From Pelagibacteraceae bacterium AG-430-I06 (GTDB taxonomy: Bacteria > Pseudomonadota > Alphaproteobacteria > Pelagibacterales > Pelagibacteraceae), in NCBI GenBank assembly GCA_003209895.1, contig QCOH01000008.1, positions 1 through 54,430 on the forward strand: a DNA stretch of 54,430 nt, in the 5' to 3' direction. Both the position numbers and the translations under genes were made by a program. Shown piece after piece: positions 37,951 through 54,430 of this stretch (positions are counted from its first letter, which is position 1; every line of letters begins with the position of its first letter). The notes under the pieces were generated by a model. That model worked only from the letters and a program-made list of their open reading frames with translations, was not told where the DNA came from and made no database searches.

Positions 37951-39010
37951 TTATTTGTTTAAAATTCTTTTTCTATTTGCATCAAAAAAATAAATATTTT
38001 TTTTTTGAAAATGATATTTTTGAATGGTCTTTGTTTACATTATTTGAGGTTTTTATTCTAAATTCTTTTCCGTTCAAAGTTGTATATATTATTTTTTCAA
38101 AGCCAAGGTTCTCAATAATATCGACCTTTATATCAACTTTAACATCACTAGAATCATCTGTTTTGATGTGTTCTGGTCTAATTCCCATAAAAATATCATC
38201 TGAAAACTTATAGTTATCAAATTTTATTTTATTATTAAAAATGTTTATTATGTTTTGATTTGTTATTTTATCTTTGCCAATCTTTAAAATATTCATTTTT
38301 GGTGAACCTATAAACTCCGCAACGAAAATATTGTTAGGATTGTTATATATTTGGTCCGGTGAACCGTATTGTTCAATTAAACCTTCGTTTAAAATTACAA
38401 TCTTGTCAGCCAAAGTCATAGCTTCTACTTGATCATGTGTTACATAAATTATATTTGTACCCAGCTTTTTATGAAGTTTTGAAATTTCAACACGCATTTC
38501 TGATCTTAAGGCAGCATCTAGGTTTGAAAGAGGTTCGTCGAAAAGAAATAATTTAGGATTTCGAGTTATTGCTCTTCCTATTGCCACCCTTTGTCTTTGT
38601 CCGCCGGAAAGTTGTCTTGGTTTTCTCTCAAGAAGATTTTCAATTTGAAGTGTTTTTGCAGCATCTTTTACTTTTTTATCTATTTCGTTTTTATCAATTT
38701 TTTCATTTTTCAAGCCGAAGGACATGTTTTCGTAAACATTCATGTGTGGGTATAAAGCGTATGATTGAAAAACCATAGCAATTCCTCTTTTTGATGGAAT
38801 TAAATTATTTATTAGTTTTTTATCTAAATGTATTTCGCCCTCATCGACTGACTCCAAACCTGAAATCATTCTTAGAAGTGTTGACTTTCCGCATCCTGAT
38901 GGACCTACTAGAACAATAAACTCACCATGATTAATTTTAATATTAAATTTATTTATTACTTTGTTGCTTCCAAAAGATTTTTCAATATTTTTTAATTCTA
39001 TAGTGGCCAT
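37951..39010 (-). CDS. sugar-type ABC transporter ATP-binding protein (UgpC/MsmK family), end frameshifted
   Basis: A carbohydrate-type ABC ATPase with C-terminal regulatory domain: Walker [11 protein letters not shown]-loop [16 protein letters not shown], signature [15 protein letters not shown], Walker B LFLFDEP and H-loop VTHDQVEAM are intact. As printed it stops at 37982 with the odd end [10 protein letters not shown]. Removing one A from a run of ten (37997-38006) gives [17 protein letters not shown] and a stop at 37951, exactly the FD-x-N-x-x-R-I terminus usual here, for 352 aa. It diverges from the binding-protein gene at 39177 and probably energises that importer. Confidence 0.9.
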
Positions 39011-47564: not shown

Positions 47565-47935
47565 TTAAAAATATCTAAAGACTACCACGGCAAAAGCAAC
47601 AGAAATAATTGTTGCTATCCACAAATAAGGGCCAATTAATCCAAGCCATCCTAAGTGAATAAATGCACTGCTAAGTAAAGATATAAACAGTCTGTCCCCT
47701 CTTGTTGTATCTAATCCTAATGCTCCTCTTCTTGGGCTTCCCCCCCGGAACTCTCTTTTCCCACATAACCATAGCTGTTAAACAAATTGCAATAAAAAGA
47801 AAAAAAGCAGCTGTTTGCCAAGTCCAAGCCATCCATGTGATGAACTCAAAATCGAGAAAACCTTTTTTCTCTAGACTTAGATACAGAGTCCCATGTGGCC
47901 AAAAATAAAACTTTATCTGTGGGTATAATAATCAT
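47565..47935 (-). pseudogene. DUF2160 small membrane protein of the glycerol importer, double frameshift
   Basis: No single frame covers this stretch, but three pieces join to a DUF2160-like protein, a family found next to glpQ and glpV in glycerol importer operons. From ATG 47935 (overlapping the glpQ stop as ATGA) it reads MIIIPTDKVLFLATWDSVSK; after an A6 run (47863-47868), GFLDFEFITWMAWTWQTAAF and on to VPGG; after a G7 run (47740-47746), SPRRGALGLDTTRGDRLF to VVVFRYF. Each run is one base too long; corrected, the gene encodes 122 aa. The first shift is less certain, since the family could begin at the internal WMAWT Met. Both shifts may be sequence errors. Confidence 0.75.
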
Positions 47936-48732
47936 ACTCTACCTAATGCAAATCCTTTCGCTATATAATTTCTTACAAAATATATTACAATAGCACCGGG
48001 TATTATAGTTAAACTTCCAGCTGCAGCTAACAAACCTAATTCATATCCAGAGGTACTAACTGTTCTTGTCATTGTAGCTGCAATAGGTTTTGCAGCAACT
48101 GCTGTTAAAGTTTTAGCTAATAACAATTCGACCCATGAGAACATAAAACAAAAGAACATTGTAATTCCAATACCAGCGACAATTGTTGGAATGAATATTT
48201 TAATGAAAAATCTCCAGAAAGAGTATCCATCTACATATGCGGTTTCATCTAATTCTTTTGGAACGGCTGATATAAATCCTTCTAATATCCACACAGCTAA
48301 AGGAATATTAAACAAACAGTGTGATAGGGCTACTGCTATATGCGTATCAAACAAATTTATAGAAGAGTAAAATTGAAAGAAAGGTAATGCAAAAACTGCT
48401 GGTGGTGCCATACGATTTGTTAAAAGCCAGAAAAATAAATGCTTATCTCCTAAAAATTTATATCTTGAAAATGCATAAGCGGCCGGTAATGCAGCAGCCA
48501 CAGATAATACTGTATTCATCAAAACATAATAGATTGAGTTTAAATATCCAGTATACCATGTCTTATCCGTAAAAATTGTTATGTAATTCTCAAATGTAAA
48601 TTTTTGTGGCCATAAAGAATAAGTGTTTATAATTTCGGTTGTTGTTTTAAATGACATGTTTAACAACCAATAAATAGGTAACATTAAAAAAATTATATAG
48701 AGTGTAGGTACCAACCATTTAAATTTTTTCAT
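47932..48732 (-). CDS. glpQ: glycerol ABC transporter permease GlpQ
   Basis: A 266-aa MalG-type permease with six helices. Features: WLLNMSFKTTTEIINTYSLW, AAALPAAYAFSRYKFLGDKH and the ATPase-contact loop SAVPKELDETAYVDGYSFWR. The gene set (binding protein, two ATPases, two permeases and a DUF2160 protein, next to glpK) matches the GlpVSTPQ glycerol importer described in rhizobia. The ATG overlaps the glpP stop by 4 bp. Confidence 0.9.
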   Translation of the reverse strand: MKKFKWLVPTLYIIFLMLPIYWLLNMSFKTTTEIINTYSLWPQKFTFENYITIFTDKTWYTGYLNSIYYVLMNTVLSVAAALPAAYAFSRYKFLGDKHLFFWLLTNRMAPPAVFALPFFQFYSSINLFDTHIAVALSHCLFNIPLAVWILEGFISAVPKELDETAYVDGYSFWRFFIKIFIPTIVAGIGITMFFCFMFSWVELLLAKTLTAVAAKPIAATMTRTVSTSGYELGLLAAAGSLTIIPGAIVIYFVRNYIAKGFALGRV

Positions 48733-49596
48733 GATTGACCCTCGTTTCTCATCATTAAATTATAAAAAACCCAACATACTAATAGAACTATAAAGAAATA
48801 AATTAATGACATAGCGGCTGCAGGACCTAAATCAAACTGTCCTAATGCCATCTTTACTAAATCAATTGATAAAAATGCTGTTGCATTGCCAGGTCCGCCA
48901 CCTGTTAAAACAAAAGGCTCAGTATAAATCATAAAACTATCCATAAATCTTAATAGGATAGCTATTGTTAAAACTTTTTTCATTTTAGGAAGCTCGATAT
49001 GTCTGAAGACTGCCCATCTACTAGCGCCATCAATTTCAGCAGCTTGGTAATACGCAGGCTGAATAGATCTTAAGCCAGCATATGAGAGTAAAACTACCAA
49101 AGATGTCCAATGCCAGACATCCATTAAAACAGTTGTGAACCACGCATCACCTATCTGTTGAGTGAAATTATAATCAAAACCTATAGCGTTTAATGTATGA
49201 CCTAAAAAACCAATTTGAGGTAAAGCAAATATATTCCACATTGCTCCAACTACATTCCATGGAATTAATAGTGGCATTGACATCAAAACTAAACAAATTG
49301 ATACACCAATACCTTTTTTTTGGCATCGTAAGAGCAATAGCAACACCGAGAGGAATTTGTATAAAAAGTATAATTCCAGTAAATAAAAATTGTCTTCCTA
49401 AAGCTGCATGAAATCTTTCAGACCTTAGTATTTGCTTAAACCACCTAGTACCTTCCCAAGTGAAAACGTTGTTACCAAATGTTTCTTGGAATGCATAATT
49501 TACTACAGTCATAAGAGGCACAACAGCATTAAAAGCAACCAGGATAAAAACTGGTATGACAAATAACCAAGCTTTTTGATTTAATGTTTTGTTCAT
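48729..49596 (-). CDS. glpP: glycerol ABC transporter permease GlpP, frameshifted
   Basis: A MalF-type permease split between two frames. From ATG 49596, MNKTLNQKAWLFVIPVFILV runs to IQIPLGVAIALTMPKK; the remainder GIGVSICLVLMSMPLLIPWN to LMMRNEGQS is one frame away. The join is a run of eight As (49314-49321, minus strand) where seven would keep the frame and give 288 aa, normal for the family. The EAA loop YYQAAEIDGASRWAVFRHIE is in the second part. Its ATG overlaps the glpT stop as ATGA and its stop overlaps glpQ likewise. Confidence 0.87.
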
Positions 49597-50657
49597 TCTA
49601 TTATCCAGTTATCTCCATAAGCATAAGTAAATTTTTTATCAAAAGATAAGTAAGTGCTTTCAGTAGGAATATTTTGTGATGAATGTGAAAGAACTTTAAT
49701 TTTTCCACTTTTGCATATCGTATCGATAATTTTATATCTACCAGTATTACTTACCTTTAAAACCTTCACCGGTATTCCGTCCTTACTAAAAGATACAAAT
49801 TCTGGTCTGATGCCTATTTCTGTTTTAGTAAAATTAGATTTTTTAATTTGTGATCCAGTTTCTATTTTTACTCCATCAATCGCTGCTATGCCATCATTTA
49901 ACTCACATGGTAAAATATTCATGCCAGGTGATCCTATAAAGTGTCCAACAAAAGTATGTTTCGGTTTTTCAAATAACTCGACCGGTGTACCAGTCTGAAC
50001 AATTTGGCCTTCGTGCATTACAACAACTTGGTCTGCAAAAGTGAGTGCTTCTGTTTGGTCATGGGTTACATAGATCATGGTTCTATTAATTTTTTGATGT
50101 AGCTCCTTAAGTTTTGAACGAAGTATCCATTTCAGATGTGGATCAATTACTGTTAGAGGTTCATCAAACATAATCACGTTTACATTAGCTCTTACCAATC
50201 CTCTTCCTAATGAAATTTTTTGTTTTCCATCAGCAGTTAATCCTGCGGCCCTATTATTTAGAGTGTTGGTAAGCTCTAGCATTTCTGCTATTTCCTTTAC
50301 CCTAGTGTCAATTTCTCCATCTGACATTCCCCTATTTTTTAATGGAAAAGCCAAATTGTCATATACGGTCATGGTGTCGTAGATAACTGGAAATTGAAAT
50401 ATTTGGGCGATATTTCTTTCAACCGGTGACAATGAAGTTATATCTTTTCCATCAAATAAAATTTTACCCTTTGTAGGATTTAAAAGACCTGAAATTATAT
50501 TTAACAAAGTAGTTTTGCCACAGCCAGAAGGGCCAAGTAAAGCATAAGCTCCGCCATCTTTCCAATCAAGATTTATATTTTTAAGAGCCCAATCTGAATC
50601 TAAACTTTGTTTATCAAGATAGCTATGACTTAGATTTGCTAATGTTATTTTAGACAT
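49593..50657 (-). CDS. glpT: glycerol ABC transporter ATPase GlpT (degenerate signature)
   Basis: A 354-aa carbohydrate-type ABC ATPase. Walker A GPSGCGKTT, Walker B VIMFDEP and H-loop YVTHDQTEA are intact, but the ABC signature, normally LSGGQ, reads LTADGKQKISLGRG. Since signature motifs act on ATP held by the partner subunit, the site formed with GlpS Walker A is probably weak. It overlaps glpS by 8 bp. Confidence 0.9.
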   Translation of the reverse strand: MSKITLANLSHSYLDKQSLDSDWALKNINLDWKDGGAYALLGPSGCGKTTLLNIISGLLNPTKGKILFDGKDITSLSPVERNIAQIFQFPVIYDTMTVYDNLAFPLKNRGMSDGEIDTRVKEIAEMLELTNTLNNRAAGLTADGKQKISLGRGLVRANVNVIMFDEPLTVIDPHLKWILRSKLKELHQKINRTMIYVTHDQTEALTFADQVVVMHEGQIVQTGTPVELFEKPKHTFVGHFIGSPGMNILPCELNDGIAAIDGVKIETGSQIKKSNFTKTEIGIRPEFVSFSKDGIPVKVLKVSNTGRYKIIDTICKSGKIKVLSHSSQNIPTESTYLSFDKKFTYAYGDNWIIE

Positions 50658-51717
50658 GTTTCACCAAGTTATTACTTTCGTCAAAATATAAAAATTCATC
50701 TATATTCATATATAATTTAGCTTCTTGACCAACATTCATTTGATGAGTTCCATTCGACAAAGAAACCCAATCTAAATTTTCATTTCGGAAATGAATTAGG
50801 CTTTCTGATCCACTTAATTCCGATATTAAGATTTTTCCTTTAATTTCAACAGAGTTGTTACCTTCTTTATAAGTCGTAATGTTGTGTGGTCTTATACCAA
50901 CCTTATATTTTCCGTCTTTTAAATTTGTATTTTTTGTACTCCATTTTACTGTGTCTTTTAACAAAGAAAAGCTATCACCATTTTTTTGAACTTCAGATAT
51001 ATTCATTGGTGGATCACTAAAGACTTTAGCTGAAATTAGATTTTTTGGTTTATTGTAAACCTCAATTGTTTTGCCATATTGTATAACTTTACCTTCAAGA
51101 AGGGTTGCCGTGTTTCCACCTATTAATAGTGCATCCGACGGTTCTGTTGTGGCATATACAACAATACAATCTCTATTTTCAAATAGTTTTGGTAATTCCT
51201 CTCTAAGTTCTTCTCGTAATTTAAAGTCTAAATTTGCAAGCGGTTCATCTAAAAGAATTAAACCAGAGTCTTTTACTAATGCTCTAGCCAGTGCTGTCCT
51301 TTGTTGCTGGCCACCTGAAAGTTCATTGGGTTTTTTGTTTAACATACCAGATAATTTTAATAAATCAGCTATATCACCAACTCTTTTTTTTATTTCATCA
51401 GGATTAATACCTGTGATTTTTAAGGGTGATGCTATGTTATCAAACACAGTAAAGTTTGGATAATTAATAAATTGCTGATAGACCATAGAGACATTTCTTT
51501 TTTGAACTGCTTGACCAGTAACATTTTTTCCATCAAACCATATTTCTCCATTTGTAGGTTTGTCTAGGCCTGCCATAATCTGCATTAAGGTTGTTTTACC
51601 TGCCAAAGTAGATCCTAACAAAATATTGATAGTATTTTTTTGAAAAGTTAAATCTGTTCTATAAATATGAGTATCTTGTCCAATTTTTTTTTCAACTCTT
51701 TTAAGTTCTAAACTCAT
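50650..51717 (-). CDS. glpS: glycerol ABC transporter ATPase GlpS (missing H-loop His)
   Basis: A 355-aa partner of GlpT. Walker A is GSTLAGKTT (a GxxxxGKT variant), the signature [15 protein letters not shown] and Walker B LILLDEP are intact, but the H-loop reads VVYATTEPSDAL with Thr in place of the catalytic-site His. This defect complements that of GlpT. The ATG follows a stem-loop after glpV and has no clear Shine-Dalgarno. Confidence 0.9.
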   Translation of the reverse strand: MSLELKRVEKKIGQDTHIYRTDLTFQKNTINILLGSTLAGKTTLMQIMAGLDKPTNGEIWFDGKNVTGQAVQKRNVSMVYQQFINYPNFTVFDNIASPLKITGINPDEIKKRVGDIADLLKLSGMLNKKPNELSGGQQQRTALARALVKDSGLILLDEPLANLDFKLREELREELPKLFENRDCIVVYATTEPSDALLIGGNTATLLEGKVIQYGKTIEVYNKPKNLISAKVFSDPPMNISEVQKNGDSFSLLKDTVKWSTKNTNLKDGKYKVGIRPHNITTYKEGNNSVEIKGKILISELSGSESLIHFRNENLDWVSLSNGTHQMNVGQEAKLYMNIDEFLYFDESNNLVKHV

Positions 51718-51788: not shown

Positions 51789-53507
51789 TTACTTCCACGC
51801 ATCTTTGTAAGCAACAGTCTTACCTTGTGGTTTTTCATTACGTTTCGCTTTAGGCGAACCTTTCTTACTTAACCATTTGTTTGAGTCTGACTCTTTGTTA
51901 AGTCTTGGACCGCAACCACCGTAAGTGTTATTGGCTTTGTCAGCCGCTTCCATACGAGACATAACTAAGTCCATCTCACCAGCGAGACGATCCATAGCTT
52001 GTTGTGGAGTAAACGCACCAGAGTTTACATCTCCAATTTGTTGCCACCATATTTGTGCAAGTTTTGGATAGTCTGGAACGTTGATACCAGTTGGTGACCA
52101 TAATACTCGGTTTTTAGATCTGTAGAATTCTACAAGTCCGCCAAGTTTAGGAGCTCTGTCAGTAAAAGATTTATGGTTAATATCACTATCTCTAATGATA
52201 GTTAAACCAACGTGACTTTTCTTAAGAGATACAGTTTTTGAAACTGTAAACTGAGCGTATAACCATGCAGCTTTTCTTCTATCAACTGGAGTAGACTTAA
52301 ATAAAGTCCATGATCCAGCATCTTGATATCCAAGCTTCATACCTTCATCCCAGTAAGGACCTTTTGGTGAAGGACCCATTCTCCATAATGGAGTACCATT
52401 ATCATCAACAGTTTTGTTTCCTGCACTTTTTGGTGCAACCATTGATGCTGTAAATGCTGTATACCAGAAAATTTGTTGTGCAACGTTTCCTGATGATAGC
52501 GCTGGTAATGACTGGTAAAAGTCCATAGCAGCTGCACCTGGAGGAGCGTATTGTCTTAACCACTCGTCCCATTTTCTAATAGCGTAAACTGCGGCTGGAC
52601 CGTTAGCTGCACCACCACGAGATACCGAAGCACCTACTGGGTTACAAGAACCTTTTTCCATTCTTATTCCCCATTCGTCAACTGGTACACCGTTTGGTTT
52701 ACCAACCGAACCTGCTCCAGCCATTGATAACCACGCGTCAGTCATTCTCCAACCTAAATCTGGAGCTCTTTTACCGTAGTCCATATGACCGTATACTCTA
52801 ACACCATCAATATTCTTAACATCGTTTGTAAAGAAATTGGCGATGTCTTCATAAGCAGACCAGTTAACTGGTACACCTAAGTCATAACCATATTTAGCTT
52901 TAAACTTTTTCTTTAAATCAGGTTTATCAAACCAATCTTTTCTAAACCAATAAAGGTTTGCGAATTGTTGGTCTGGTAGCTGATACAATTTACCATCCGG
53001 ACCTGTTGTAAATGATTTACCAATAAAATCATCAATATCAAGAGTTGGTAAAGTAACATCTTTACCTTCGCCTGCCATCCAGTCTGTTAAATTTACTGCA
53101 AGCTGAAGTCTTGAGTGCGTACCAATTAAATCAGAATCATTGATATATGCATCGTACAAGTTTCTTCCAGTTTGCATTTGTGTTTGAACTGCCTGTACTA
53201 CTTCTCCTTCTCCAAGCAATTGGTGATTTACTTTAATACCAGTAATTTCCCCAAATGCTTTTGTAAGAGTTTTAGACTCGTAAGTGTGAGTTGGAATAGT
53301 TTCAGATAGAACGTTAATTTCCATTCCTTTAAAAGGCGCTGCAGCCTTTTGAAACCATTGTAATTCTTTAACTCTTTGTTTTTCTGACAAAGTAGATAAA
53401 CTAAACTCACCTTTTGCCCATTTACTAATCGCATCAGCATAAGCCGATGTGAAAAGAAGAGAAAAAGTAACAGCAACAGTTAAGATCGATCTTAATGTTT
53501 TTAACAT
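51789..53507 (-). CDS. glpV: glycerol ABC transporter substrate-binding protein GlpV
   Basis: A 572-aa periplasmic binding protein, long for its class as GlpV proteins are. Signal peptide SILTVAVTFSLLFTSAYA is followed by DAISKWAKGEFSLSTLSEKQ, then NVLSETIPTHTYESKTLTKA and LPDQQFANLYWFRKDWFDKP. Two Cys (in KGSCNPVGA and YGGCGPRL) could form a disulfide. I start at ATG 53507, preceded by GGGGG; a frame open to 53555 runs into the promoter. Confidence 0.94.
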   Translation of the reverse strand: MLKTLRSILTVAVTFSLLFTSAYADAISKWAKGEFSLSTLSEKQRVKELQWFQKAAAPFKGMEINVLSETIPTHTYESKTLTKAFGEITGIKVNHQLLGEGEVVQAVQTQMQTGRNLYDAYINDSDLIGTHSRLQLAVNLTDWMAGEGKDVTLPTLDIDDFIGKSFTTGPDGKLYQLPDQQFANLYWFRKDWFDKPDLKKKFKAKYGYDLGVPVNWSAYEDIANFFTNDVKNIDGVRVYGHMDYGKRAPDLGWRMTDAWLSMAGAGSVGKPNGVPVDEWGIRMEKGSCNPVGASVSRGGAANGPAAVYAIRKWDEWLRQYAPPGAAAMDFYQSLPALSSGNVAQQIFWYTAFTASMVAPKSAGNKTVDDNGTPLWRMGPSPKGPYWDEGMKLGYQDAGSWTLFKSTPVDRRKAAWLYAQFTVSKTVSLKKSHVGLTIIRDSDINHKSFTDRAPKLGGLVEFYRSKNRVLWSPTGINVPDYPKLAQIWWQQIGDVNSGAFTPQQAMDRLAGEMDLVMSRMEAADKANNTYGGCGPRLNKESDSNKWLSKKGSPKAKRNEKPQGKTVAYKDAWK

Positions 53508-53540
53508 TTTACCCCCGTTGTTGTTGTTTAAACGTTGTTT

Positions 53541-53569
53541 ATTAAACCGAATCATAGCTCTTCTGTCAA
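53541..53569 (-). promoter_or_regulatory. predicted sigma-70 promoter of glpV
   Basis: On the minus strand a perfect -35 TTGACA (53569-53564) and -10 TTTAAT (53546-53541) are exactly 17 bp apart, the best promoter match seen in the window. It lies in the 100-bp gap between glpK and glpV, so glpV can be transcribed independently of glpK. The leader would be about 25 nt, ending in GGGGG before the ATG. Confidence 0.75.
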
Positions 53570-53607: not shown

Positions 53608-54430
53608 TTAAGTAATTAAAGTTCTTTGAATTGCTGTATTCCAGCCCTTAAGAACTTTTTTTCTTTCTTTATTATTAACTCTTGGAGAGAATTTTTTATC
53701 TAAACTCCATTGTTTAGAAATTTCTTTTAAAGATTTGTAAACTCCTATTTTTAATCCAGCCATAAAAGCTGCTCCAAGAGCGGTTGTTTCATGTACTTTT
53801 GGTCTTAAAACTTTAACGTTGATCATATCTGCTAAATATTGTGAAAACCAATTGTTCATAACCATGCCGCCATCCACCTTAACTAGTTTAGGTCTTAAAC
53901 CGTCATTTCTCATAGCTTCAAACAAATCGTATGTTTGATAAGCAACAGACTCTAAAGTTGCTCTAACAATTTCCTTGGGTCCAGTATCTCTTGTTATTCC
54001 ACTAAGAACTCCTCTTGCATTGGCATTCCAATAAGGAGCGCCTATACCAGTAAAAGCTGGGACTAAATAAATTCCCGCGTTGTCTTTTAATGATCTGACG
54101 ATTTTTTCAGTATCTGAGGCTTTTTTTATAAACTTCATTCGGTCTCTTACCCATTGAACTCCAGCACCCGCTATAAAAATTGAGCCTTCGAGTGCATATG
54201 TGGTTTTACCATTTATTCTGTAACCTATGGTCGTTAACAATCTATTTTTTGAATATATTTTTCTAGAACCTGTGTTTAATAAAATAAAAGCACCAGTTCC
54301 GTAAGTACTTTTTAAAGAGCCTGGTTCAAAACAGCACTGACCTATTGTTGCTGATTGTTGGTCACCAACAACTCCTCTGATTGGAATTGATTTGCCAGTT
54401 ATTGAAGGATGTGTTGATCCATAATCATCA
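53608..54430 (-). CDS. glpK: glycerol kinase (5' end outside window)
   Basis: The C-terminal 273 codons of a FGGY-family kinase, open to the window edge at 54430. Visible: PIRGVVGDQQSATIGQCCFE, GSLKSTYGTGAFILLNTG, YALEGSIFIAGAGVQWVRDR, then LVPAFTGIGAPYWNANARGV and VDGGMVMNNWFSQYLADMIN. These are typical glycerol kinase motifs. The enzyme phosphorylates imported glycerol to glycerol-3-phosphate, and trapping by the kinase fits its place upstream of glpV. Confidence 0.95.
   Translation of the reverse strand, partial: DDYGSTHPSITGKSIPIRGVVGDQQSATIGQCCFEPGSLKSTYGTGAFILLNTGSRKIYSKNRLLTTIGYRINGKTTYALEGSIFIAGAGVQWVRDRMKFIKKASDTEKIVRSLKDNAGIYLVPAFTGIGAPYWNANARGVLSGITRDTGPKEIVRATLESVAYQTYDLFEAMRNDGLRPKLVKVDGGMVMNNWFSQYLADMINVKVLRPKVHETTALGAAFMAGLKIGVYKSLKEISKQWSLDKKFSPRVNNKERKKVLKGWNTAIQRTLIT

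Follow-up and report, generated by a model that had tools for sequence, protein, structure and literature searches.

Complementary motif defects in the GlpS and GlpT ATPases of a glycerol importer predict a single active ATP site

A 54,430-nucleotide stretch of DNA from Pelagibacteraceae bacterium AG-430-I06 (contig QCOH01000008.1 of assembly GCA_003209895.1, hereafter the window) carries the genes of a putative glycerol importer, whose two ATP-binding cassette (ABC) ATPases, GlpS and GlpT, were found to bear complementary defects. GlpS shows a perfect LSGGQ signature and a threonine in the place of the H-loop histidine, while GlpT shows the histidine and a degenerate signature, and neither protein has both canonical features together. 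The same split occurred in every GlpS-GlpT pair examined, pointing to an old and strictly conserved arrangement and suggesting that the two proteins probably work as a heterodimer with one hydrolytic site per transporter.

The maltose importer is the model of this fold and has two identical ATP sites, and the number of hydrolysis events needed per import is still argued. GlpS-GlpT represents a natural experiment in the MalK fold, with one site apparently off and kept so in all pairs examined across a phylum. Since the subunits are encoded by separate genes, either site can be altered without the other and the question is directly testable.

Motifs and composite sites of GlpS and GlpT

Motif positions were obtained by alignment to E. 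coli MalK (taken from NC_000913.3) and UgpC. Both proteins belong to the MalK/CUT1 type, as ABC_tran matched in each of them and GlpS matched MalK structures over its whole length; the combination of LSGGQ and histidine in one protein defines the canonical homodimers and not the fold family. The AlphaFold2 model of GlpS had a predicted local distance difference test (pLDDT) score of 89.4 and returned Z-scores of 35-38 to MalK chains, with a Z-score of 38.2 and a root-mean-square deviation of 3.1 over 353 residues for chain 4khz_B. The GlpT model had a pLDDT score of 83.3 and was weaker at residues ~141-190. The Pfam domain OB_MalK gave a weak match of 27.1 bits in GlpT, just above the cut-off of 27, and none in GlpS at an E value of 0.001.

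In the alignment, the signature residues S135-G136-G137-Q138 of MalK correspond to S134-G135-G136-Q137 of GlpS and T141-A142-D143-G144 of GlpT, and the H-loop residue H192 corresponds to T191 and H199 respectively. The A-loop Trp13 of MalK is replaced by Ile12 in GlpS and Tyr13 in GlpT, the Walker A Lys42 is found as Lys41 and Lys48, the Q-loop Gln82 as Gln81 and Gln88, and the Walker B pair D158-E159 is Asp-Glu in both proteins. In place of the MalK D-loop SNLD, GlpS has ANLD and GlpT has TVID. For GlpT, these data confirmed the open reading frame (ORF), the intact Walker A, Walker B and H-loop histidine and the LTADG motif described in the initial annotation. For GlpS, the LSGGQ signature, the H-loop threonine and the Walker lysine, threonine and Asp-Glu were also verified; the Walker A motif, which had been listed among the intact ones, matches the GxxxxGKT pattern but not the GPSGCGK[ST] form that is customary in this family. 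The only histidines of the window GlpS are residues 17, 278, 309, 325 and 354, and no compensating histidine was found near the H-loop.

The D-loop is assigned to the site of the opposite subunit. In an ABC dimer, one subunit supplies a site with the Walker motifs and the A-, Q- and H-loops while its partner contributes the signature, and the D-loop usually makes no contact with the nucleotide (PMC7756269). Because the Walker side of GlpS pairs with the GlpT signature, all the deviations fall within one composite site. Assuming a head-to-tail heterodimer, this degenerate site would contain threonine for histidine and isoleucine for the A-loop aromatic residue on the GlpS side, facing LTADG and TVID of GlpT. 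The other site would be canonical, combining Walker A and B, Q-loop, aromatic A-loop and histidine of GlpT with LSGGQ and a near-normal D-loop of GlpS. At the level of sequence, there is good support for the earlier prediction that one site is complete and the other doubly defective, and the deviations in the A-loop and D-loop and the conservation described below strengthen it. The coordinates of all features are listed in Table 1.

Table 1. Positions of the motifs, importer genes and related ATPase pairs.
Feature	Stretch	Positions	Strand	Remarks
GlpS Walker A GSTLAGKT, residues 35-42	window	51592..51615	minus	atypical; Lys and Thr present
GlpS signature LSGGQ, residues 133-137	window	51307..51321	minus	intact; predicted partner of the GlpT-bound nucleotide
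GlpS Walker B LILLDEP, residues 153-159	window	51241..51261	minus	E158 retained
GlpS H-loop ATTEPSD, residues 189-195	window	51133..51153	minus	T191 where His expected
GlpT Walker A GPSGCGKT, residues 42-49	window	50511..50534	minus	canonical
GlpT signature LTADG, residues 140-144	window	50226..50240	minus	degenerate
GlpT Walker B VIMFDEP, residues 161-167	window	50157..50177	minus	Asp and Glu retained
GlpT D-loop LTVIDPH, residues 168-174	window	50136..50156	minus	unlike LSNLDA in MalK/UgpC
GlpT H-loop His199	window	50061..50063	minus	intact
glpS	window	50650..51717	minus	MalK/UgpC-type ATPase, 355 amino acids; PF00005; 8-base overlap with glpT
glpT	window	49593..50657	minus	MalK/UgpC-type ATPase, 354 amino acids; PF00005; 4-base overlap with first glpP frame
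glpV, solute-binding protein of the importer	window	51789..53555	minus	PF01547 and synteny with Rhizobium, Tistrella, Celeribacter
glpP permease	window	48729..49596	minus	two frames in this assembly, ORFs 49174-49596 and 48729-49346
glpQ permease	window	47932..48732	minus	PF00528
DUF2160 small membrane protein gene	window	47671..47832	minus	shortened by frameshift; PF09928 positions 1-48 of 88
glpK glycerol kinase	window	53608..54429	minus	cut by window end; NF000756, TIGR01311
Sister importer	L119	4791-10279
Sister importer	L120	4299-9799
Sister importer	L121	4464-9971
Pro-family pair	L171	1630-3833		adjoins asparaginase-like and ferredoxin-type genes
Pro-family pair	L173
Half-way family pair	L169	6133-8307		relatives L189-L202
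Liv-type pair	L255	687-2227		window genome, C24
Liv-type pair	L263	4725-6207		E. coli

Conservation in relatives and controls

A first set of relatives comprised 136 GlpS and 134 GlpT sequences, seven ORFs that scored below 280 bits or were not clearly S or T having been omitted (the L122 pair, L123, L042, two of L063 and L059). LSGGQ was present in all 136 GlpS sequences and the H-loop histidine in none, position 191 being occupied by threonine in 125 and by serine in 11 of them. P193 was found in 135/136, and the A-loop position was valine in 114 and isoleucine in 14. GlpT showed the opposite pattern, with LSGGQ in 0/134 and the histidine in 133, the remaining sequence being cut by a contig end. 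The motif replacing the signature was itself strongly conserved (L140, K145 and Q146 in 134/134, D143 in 133/134), as was the D-loop, which read LTVIDPH in 124 of these sequences and LTVIDP in 157/157 of a larger set. Of the 136 GlpS loci, 134 also contained GlpT, and in the two exceptions (L039 and L086) GlpS lies at or near the contig end.

Histidine reached at least 25% in columns 17 (134 of the 136 aligned GlpS sequences), 19 (44) and 207 (43) and in six columns from 278 on. A histidine three residues after position 191 was detected in 11/136 sequences, the window not among them, and a substitute for the H-loop residue is possible in those. The nearly invariant H17 (window 51667-51669) lies just past the non-aromatic A-loop position and possibly provides a substitute contact to the nucleotide base.

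The larger set included ORFs of at least 200 amino acids and at least 80 bits, with phylum-wide matches added, for a total of 453 ORFs in 247 loci. It contained 202 tandem pairs, 186 of them distinct after removal of repeats. The survey was non-random, the loci being chosen for likeness to GlpS or its tandem cousins among the best 80 or 30 of each search, and since ORFs were taken from stop to stop a few rows list the two members of a pair in the opposite order. The distinct pairs were distributed among the GlpST type (158, three of them from a sister clade), two further families named Pro (12) and half-way (15), and one near-canonical pair. In 158/158 GlpST-type pairs, GlpS has SGG and lacks the H-loop histidine, GlpT has the histidine and lacks SGG, and the Walker A Lys/Thr and Walker B Asp-Glu of GlpS are kept. 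The many-genome alignment proposed in the initial annotation thus returned no canonical orthologue, either in the first set or among these pairs.

A degenerate signature and a missing histidine in the same protein were never observed among the 453 MalK-type ORFs. The 49 single ORFs were 40 with SGG and histidine, six with SGG and no histidine, two with a degenerate signature and histidine, and one gapped. The 40 consisted of 30 UgpC controls and 10 others, including three distant ABC ATPases from L063 and L059, and the nine odd ones are GlpS or Pro-family members with a partner that had been truncated away or overlooked. In the UgpC-type control, LSGGQ and the H-loop histidine occurred together in 30/30 loci, a favourable control as these loci had the top scores for that model among 115 genomes. 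Among 14 other ABC ATPase rows of the window genome (from 13 of 14 stretches, L261 omitted and four weak or partial PF00005 matches left out), the H-loop residue was histidine in 12 and glutamine in two, both LivF-like, and SGG was present in 11.

Comparison of the window genes with four relatives gave ratios of nonsynonymous to synonymous substitution (dN/dS) of 0.029-0.099 in seven of eight comparisons, which are rough values since dS (0.97-1.83) is near or past saturation; in the eighth dS was undefined. The conservation of the replacement motifs thus looks like a selected state and not like decay. The branching orders of GlpS and GlpT were broadly alike in a tree of 28 pairs. GlpS scores fell into groups, with at least 411 bits in 45 of 385 genomes of the class, three matches at 306-317 bits and the next at 252. 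The GlpS and GlpT of one actinomycete record (Enemella evansiae, L052) branch with proteobacteria next to Celeribacter, a placement that is either a recent transfer or contamination.

Importer locus

The window contains two ATPases, two permeases, a solute-binding protein and glpK, corresponding to the gene set of the GlpSTPQV glycerol importer. Glycerol is the presumed substrate, by homology to a system tested by mutation: in Ruegeria pomeroyi, an insertion mutant of SPO0608 (glpVSTPQ, SPO0608-0612) showed a 79.6% decrease in density on glycerol and a 78.8% decrease in drawdown (PMC10130141). This phenotype indicates that importers of this kind work; the ATPase motifs were read in Rhizobium johnstonii. 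A glycerol role of the importer in Rhizobium leguminosarum is cited in PMC7912956, which links a similar importer of Cupriavidus metallidurans to zinc resistance; this link, too, points to working importers of the type. The importer genes also cluster on pRL9 of R. johnstonii and on plasmids of Tistrella and Celeribacter, accompanied by glpD in all three and by glpK in two.

The glpP gene is broken into two frames at a plus-strand run of eight T (window 49314-49321), where a one-base gap distinguishes it from the relative L010, and the break may be an assembly error or a broken permease. The DUF2160 gene, whole in the eight relatives compared, is also frameshifted. Two frameshifts in a single operon suggest either indel errors or operon decay. 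The window genome is a 0.92 Mb draft with a completeness of 77.6%, and the closest named relatives found were uncultured Pelagibacteraceae genomes. Elsewhere in the window, a UgpC-type ATPase match at 37973-39010 spans an in-frame TGA and TAG.

Proposed mechanism and alternative explanations

GlpS and GlpT would form an obligate 1:1 heterodimer acting as the motor of the glycerol importer. Its canonical composite site would hydrolyse ATP, and the second site would bind nucleotide, or help to keep the dimer together, with hydrolysis too slow to be useful, as in the degenerate sites of TAP and Pdr5. As a homodimer of either protein has no complete site, pairing should be enforced. On the basis of the motifs, a single hydrolytic site per transporter is the probable arrangement. 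It agrees with the complementary split in 158/158 pairs and in the R. johnstonii pair, the absence of both defects from any one of the 453 ORFs, the conserved replacement motifs, the joint occurrence, gene overlap and broadly parallel branching of GlpS and GlpT, and the recurrence of the split in the Pro family.

Several observations weigh against this arrangement. GlpS keeps the Walker B glutamate E158, which is usually absent from the degenerate sites of exporters (PMC7544095; PMC7756269), and slow hydrolysis at the second site is therefore possible. Other permeases might in principle be driven by the two ATPases, the SPO0608 mutation is apparently located outside the ATPase genes (PMC10130141), and the importer of this particular genome may be broken, since its glpP and DUF2160 genes are both frameshifted.

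A different reading is that both sites hydrolyse ATP, T191 or E192 of GlpS and LTADxKQ of GlpT making up an alternative working catalytic site. The Walker residues kept in GlpS in 158/158 pairs, the strong conservation of the replacement motifs, the histidine three residues past position 191 in 11 sequences and the tolerance of the canonical ABCC1 site to changes of histidine to glutamine or asparagine (PMC7756269) all agree with it. However, the second site is altered from both subunits together, as well as in the A-loop and D-loop, LTAD carries an aspartate at the second glycine of LSGG, and residue 191 of GlpS is threonine, neither of the replacements tolerated in ABCC1, so that hydrolysis at both sites seems unlikely. 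It is a still weaker candidate that GlpS serves chiefly as a regulatory or structural partner with hardly any ATP binding, with GlpT as the motor on a GlpS scaffold: the missing aromatic A-loop residue and the changed Walker A would fit, but the Lys/Thr of Walker A, the Asp/Glu of Walker B and the glutamine of the Q-loop are all retained, which would be odd if GlpS bound no nucleotide.

A further possibility is that the deviations come from assembly errors, or from decay under relaxed selection of an operon that a small genome is losing. The frameshifted glpP and DUF2160 genes point in this direction, as does the occurrence of glpS in only six of the 61 genomes of a near-relative search (its own genome included, many of them incomplete). 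The motifs nevertheless recur in relatives throughout the phylum, dN/dS is low, and glpS and glpT are both intact, which makes this explanation highly improbable. Within the two ATPase genes themselves, decay or assembly error was ruled out by the motif conservation in both sets together with dN/dS.

Sister importer and other paired ATPases

The three mid-scoring GlpS matches (L119, L120 and L121) belong to a second importer, with a solute-binding protein and two permeases, which adjoins a zinc alcohol dehydrogenase gene; from this neighbour, we guess that its substrate is an alcohol or diol. In the 28-pair tree, its ATPases split off from the remaining 25 GlpS (95/93) and likewise from the remaining 25 GlpT (93/89). 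The defects are split alike, with STTDP or ASTDP in one subunit and LTADQKQ plus the histidine in the other. Both importer systems are present in G356, a genome of the window's own family.

Two further pair families occur in one family of the class (f83). In the Pro family, unrelated to GlpS-GlpT, one member has FSGGE[RK]QR and a proline at the H-loop histidine position, and its partner has L[GS]ASE[LM]QR, the histidine and an LSNLE D-loop, resulting in 12 distinct complementary pairs. In the half-way family, LSVNE[LM]QK with histidine is paired with LSGGERQR with histidine, so that the signature alone is lost in its 15 distinct pairs; this family may be an intermediate, a first step towards the split. 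L170 was the one symmetric tandem pair found in this non-random set, with LAGGD and LSGGE and the histidine in both members.

The T members of the Pro and half-way families clustered together (100/99). In the approximately unbiased (AU) test, neither a single clade of all S sequences (p 0.516) nor one of all T sequences (p 0.396) was rejected. When the half-way family was removed, the grouping of GlpS with the Pro family gave p 0.557, and that of GlpT with the partner was marginally rejected (p 0.0471). These trees were built from chosen samples of 80 rows (the 28-pair tree) and 64 rows (the second tree), and the former may wrongly unite the long branches of S and T. Counts of changes (one at the H-loop, two at the signature) were not used, as the drawn 64-row tree gives two H-loop losses. 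The complementary split had either a single or a repeated origin. We lean towards the view that MalK-type importers include little-noticed obligate heterodimers running on one hydrolytic site, in which selection keeps the dead site as a module in its own right (LTADxKQ facing TTEP); this class would comprise the glycerol importers, the sister importer and the Pro family.

Comparison with known systems

GlpS and GlpT of R. johnstonii 3841 pRL9 are 50 and 56% identical to those of the window, with motifs identical in kind. The window shares the GlpSTPQ(U)V gene set with R. leguminosarum and R. pomeroyi, and differs from the Rhizobium and Ruegeria importers in having glpK and the solute-binding protein gene on the glpS side and two frameshifts in the operon. 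MalK and UgpC have the same fold, domain order and Walker A, Walker B and Q-loop residues as GlpS and GlpT; MalK, however, forms two identical canonical sites, whereas GlpS and GlpT are encoded by two genes and present one degenerate site.

Among exporters, TAP (ABCB2/B3), TM287/288 and Pdr5 have one canonical site and, like GlpS-GlpT, carry signature and catalytic-side losses in opposite halves. In TAP and TM287/288, the signature is lost in one half and the catalytic-side motifs in the other. Pdr5 has the signature LNVEQ and a tyrosine at the H-loop (PMC7756269). In contrast to the degenerate sites of these exporters, usually devoid of the Walker B glutamate, GlpS retains it.

The initial annotation had regarded such asymmetry as unusual in sugar-type importers. 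For the MalK/CUT1 type this may be true, but a degenerate site is described for the ribose importer RbsA and the guanosine importer NupO (PMC11466899), which resemble GlpS-GlpT in having one predicted degenerate site and differ in that their domains are fused and the Walker A lysine of the second domain is lost, while GlpS and GlpT are separate and keep it. DppD/DppF was also considered as an importer precedent, a supplementary figure of PMC12136057 aligning both proteins with consensus and degenerate sites. A complementary split like that of GlpS-GlpT was observed in E. coli LivF (MSGGE and VEQN, with glutamine for histidine) and LivG (LAYGD and IEHD), and in a Liv-like pair of the window genome (LSGGE with glutamine against LSFGQ with histidine); a second Liv-like set of this genome has the glutamine and an unchanged signature. 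The LivF/LivG changes are milder and belong to a different importer family, yet they extend the complementary split among importers beyond what had been supposed.

A degenerate site in GlpS-GlpT was not mentioned in the titles and abstracts of the literature searched, whose coverage left out most subscription papers, nor in the passages covered of the papers on the Rhizobium and Ruegeria importers. Degenerate-site ABC exporters are well known and RbsA/NupO have been reported; within the literature covered, the new element is a MalK-type importer with one degenerate site in which the Walker B glutamate is kept.

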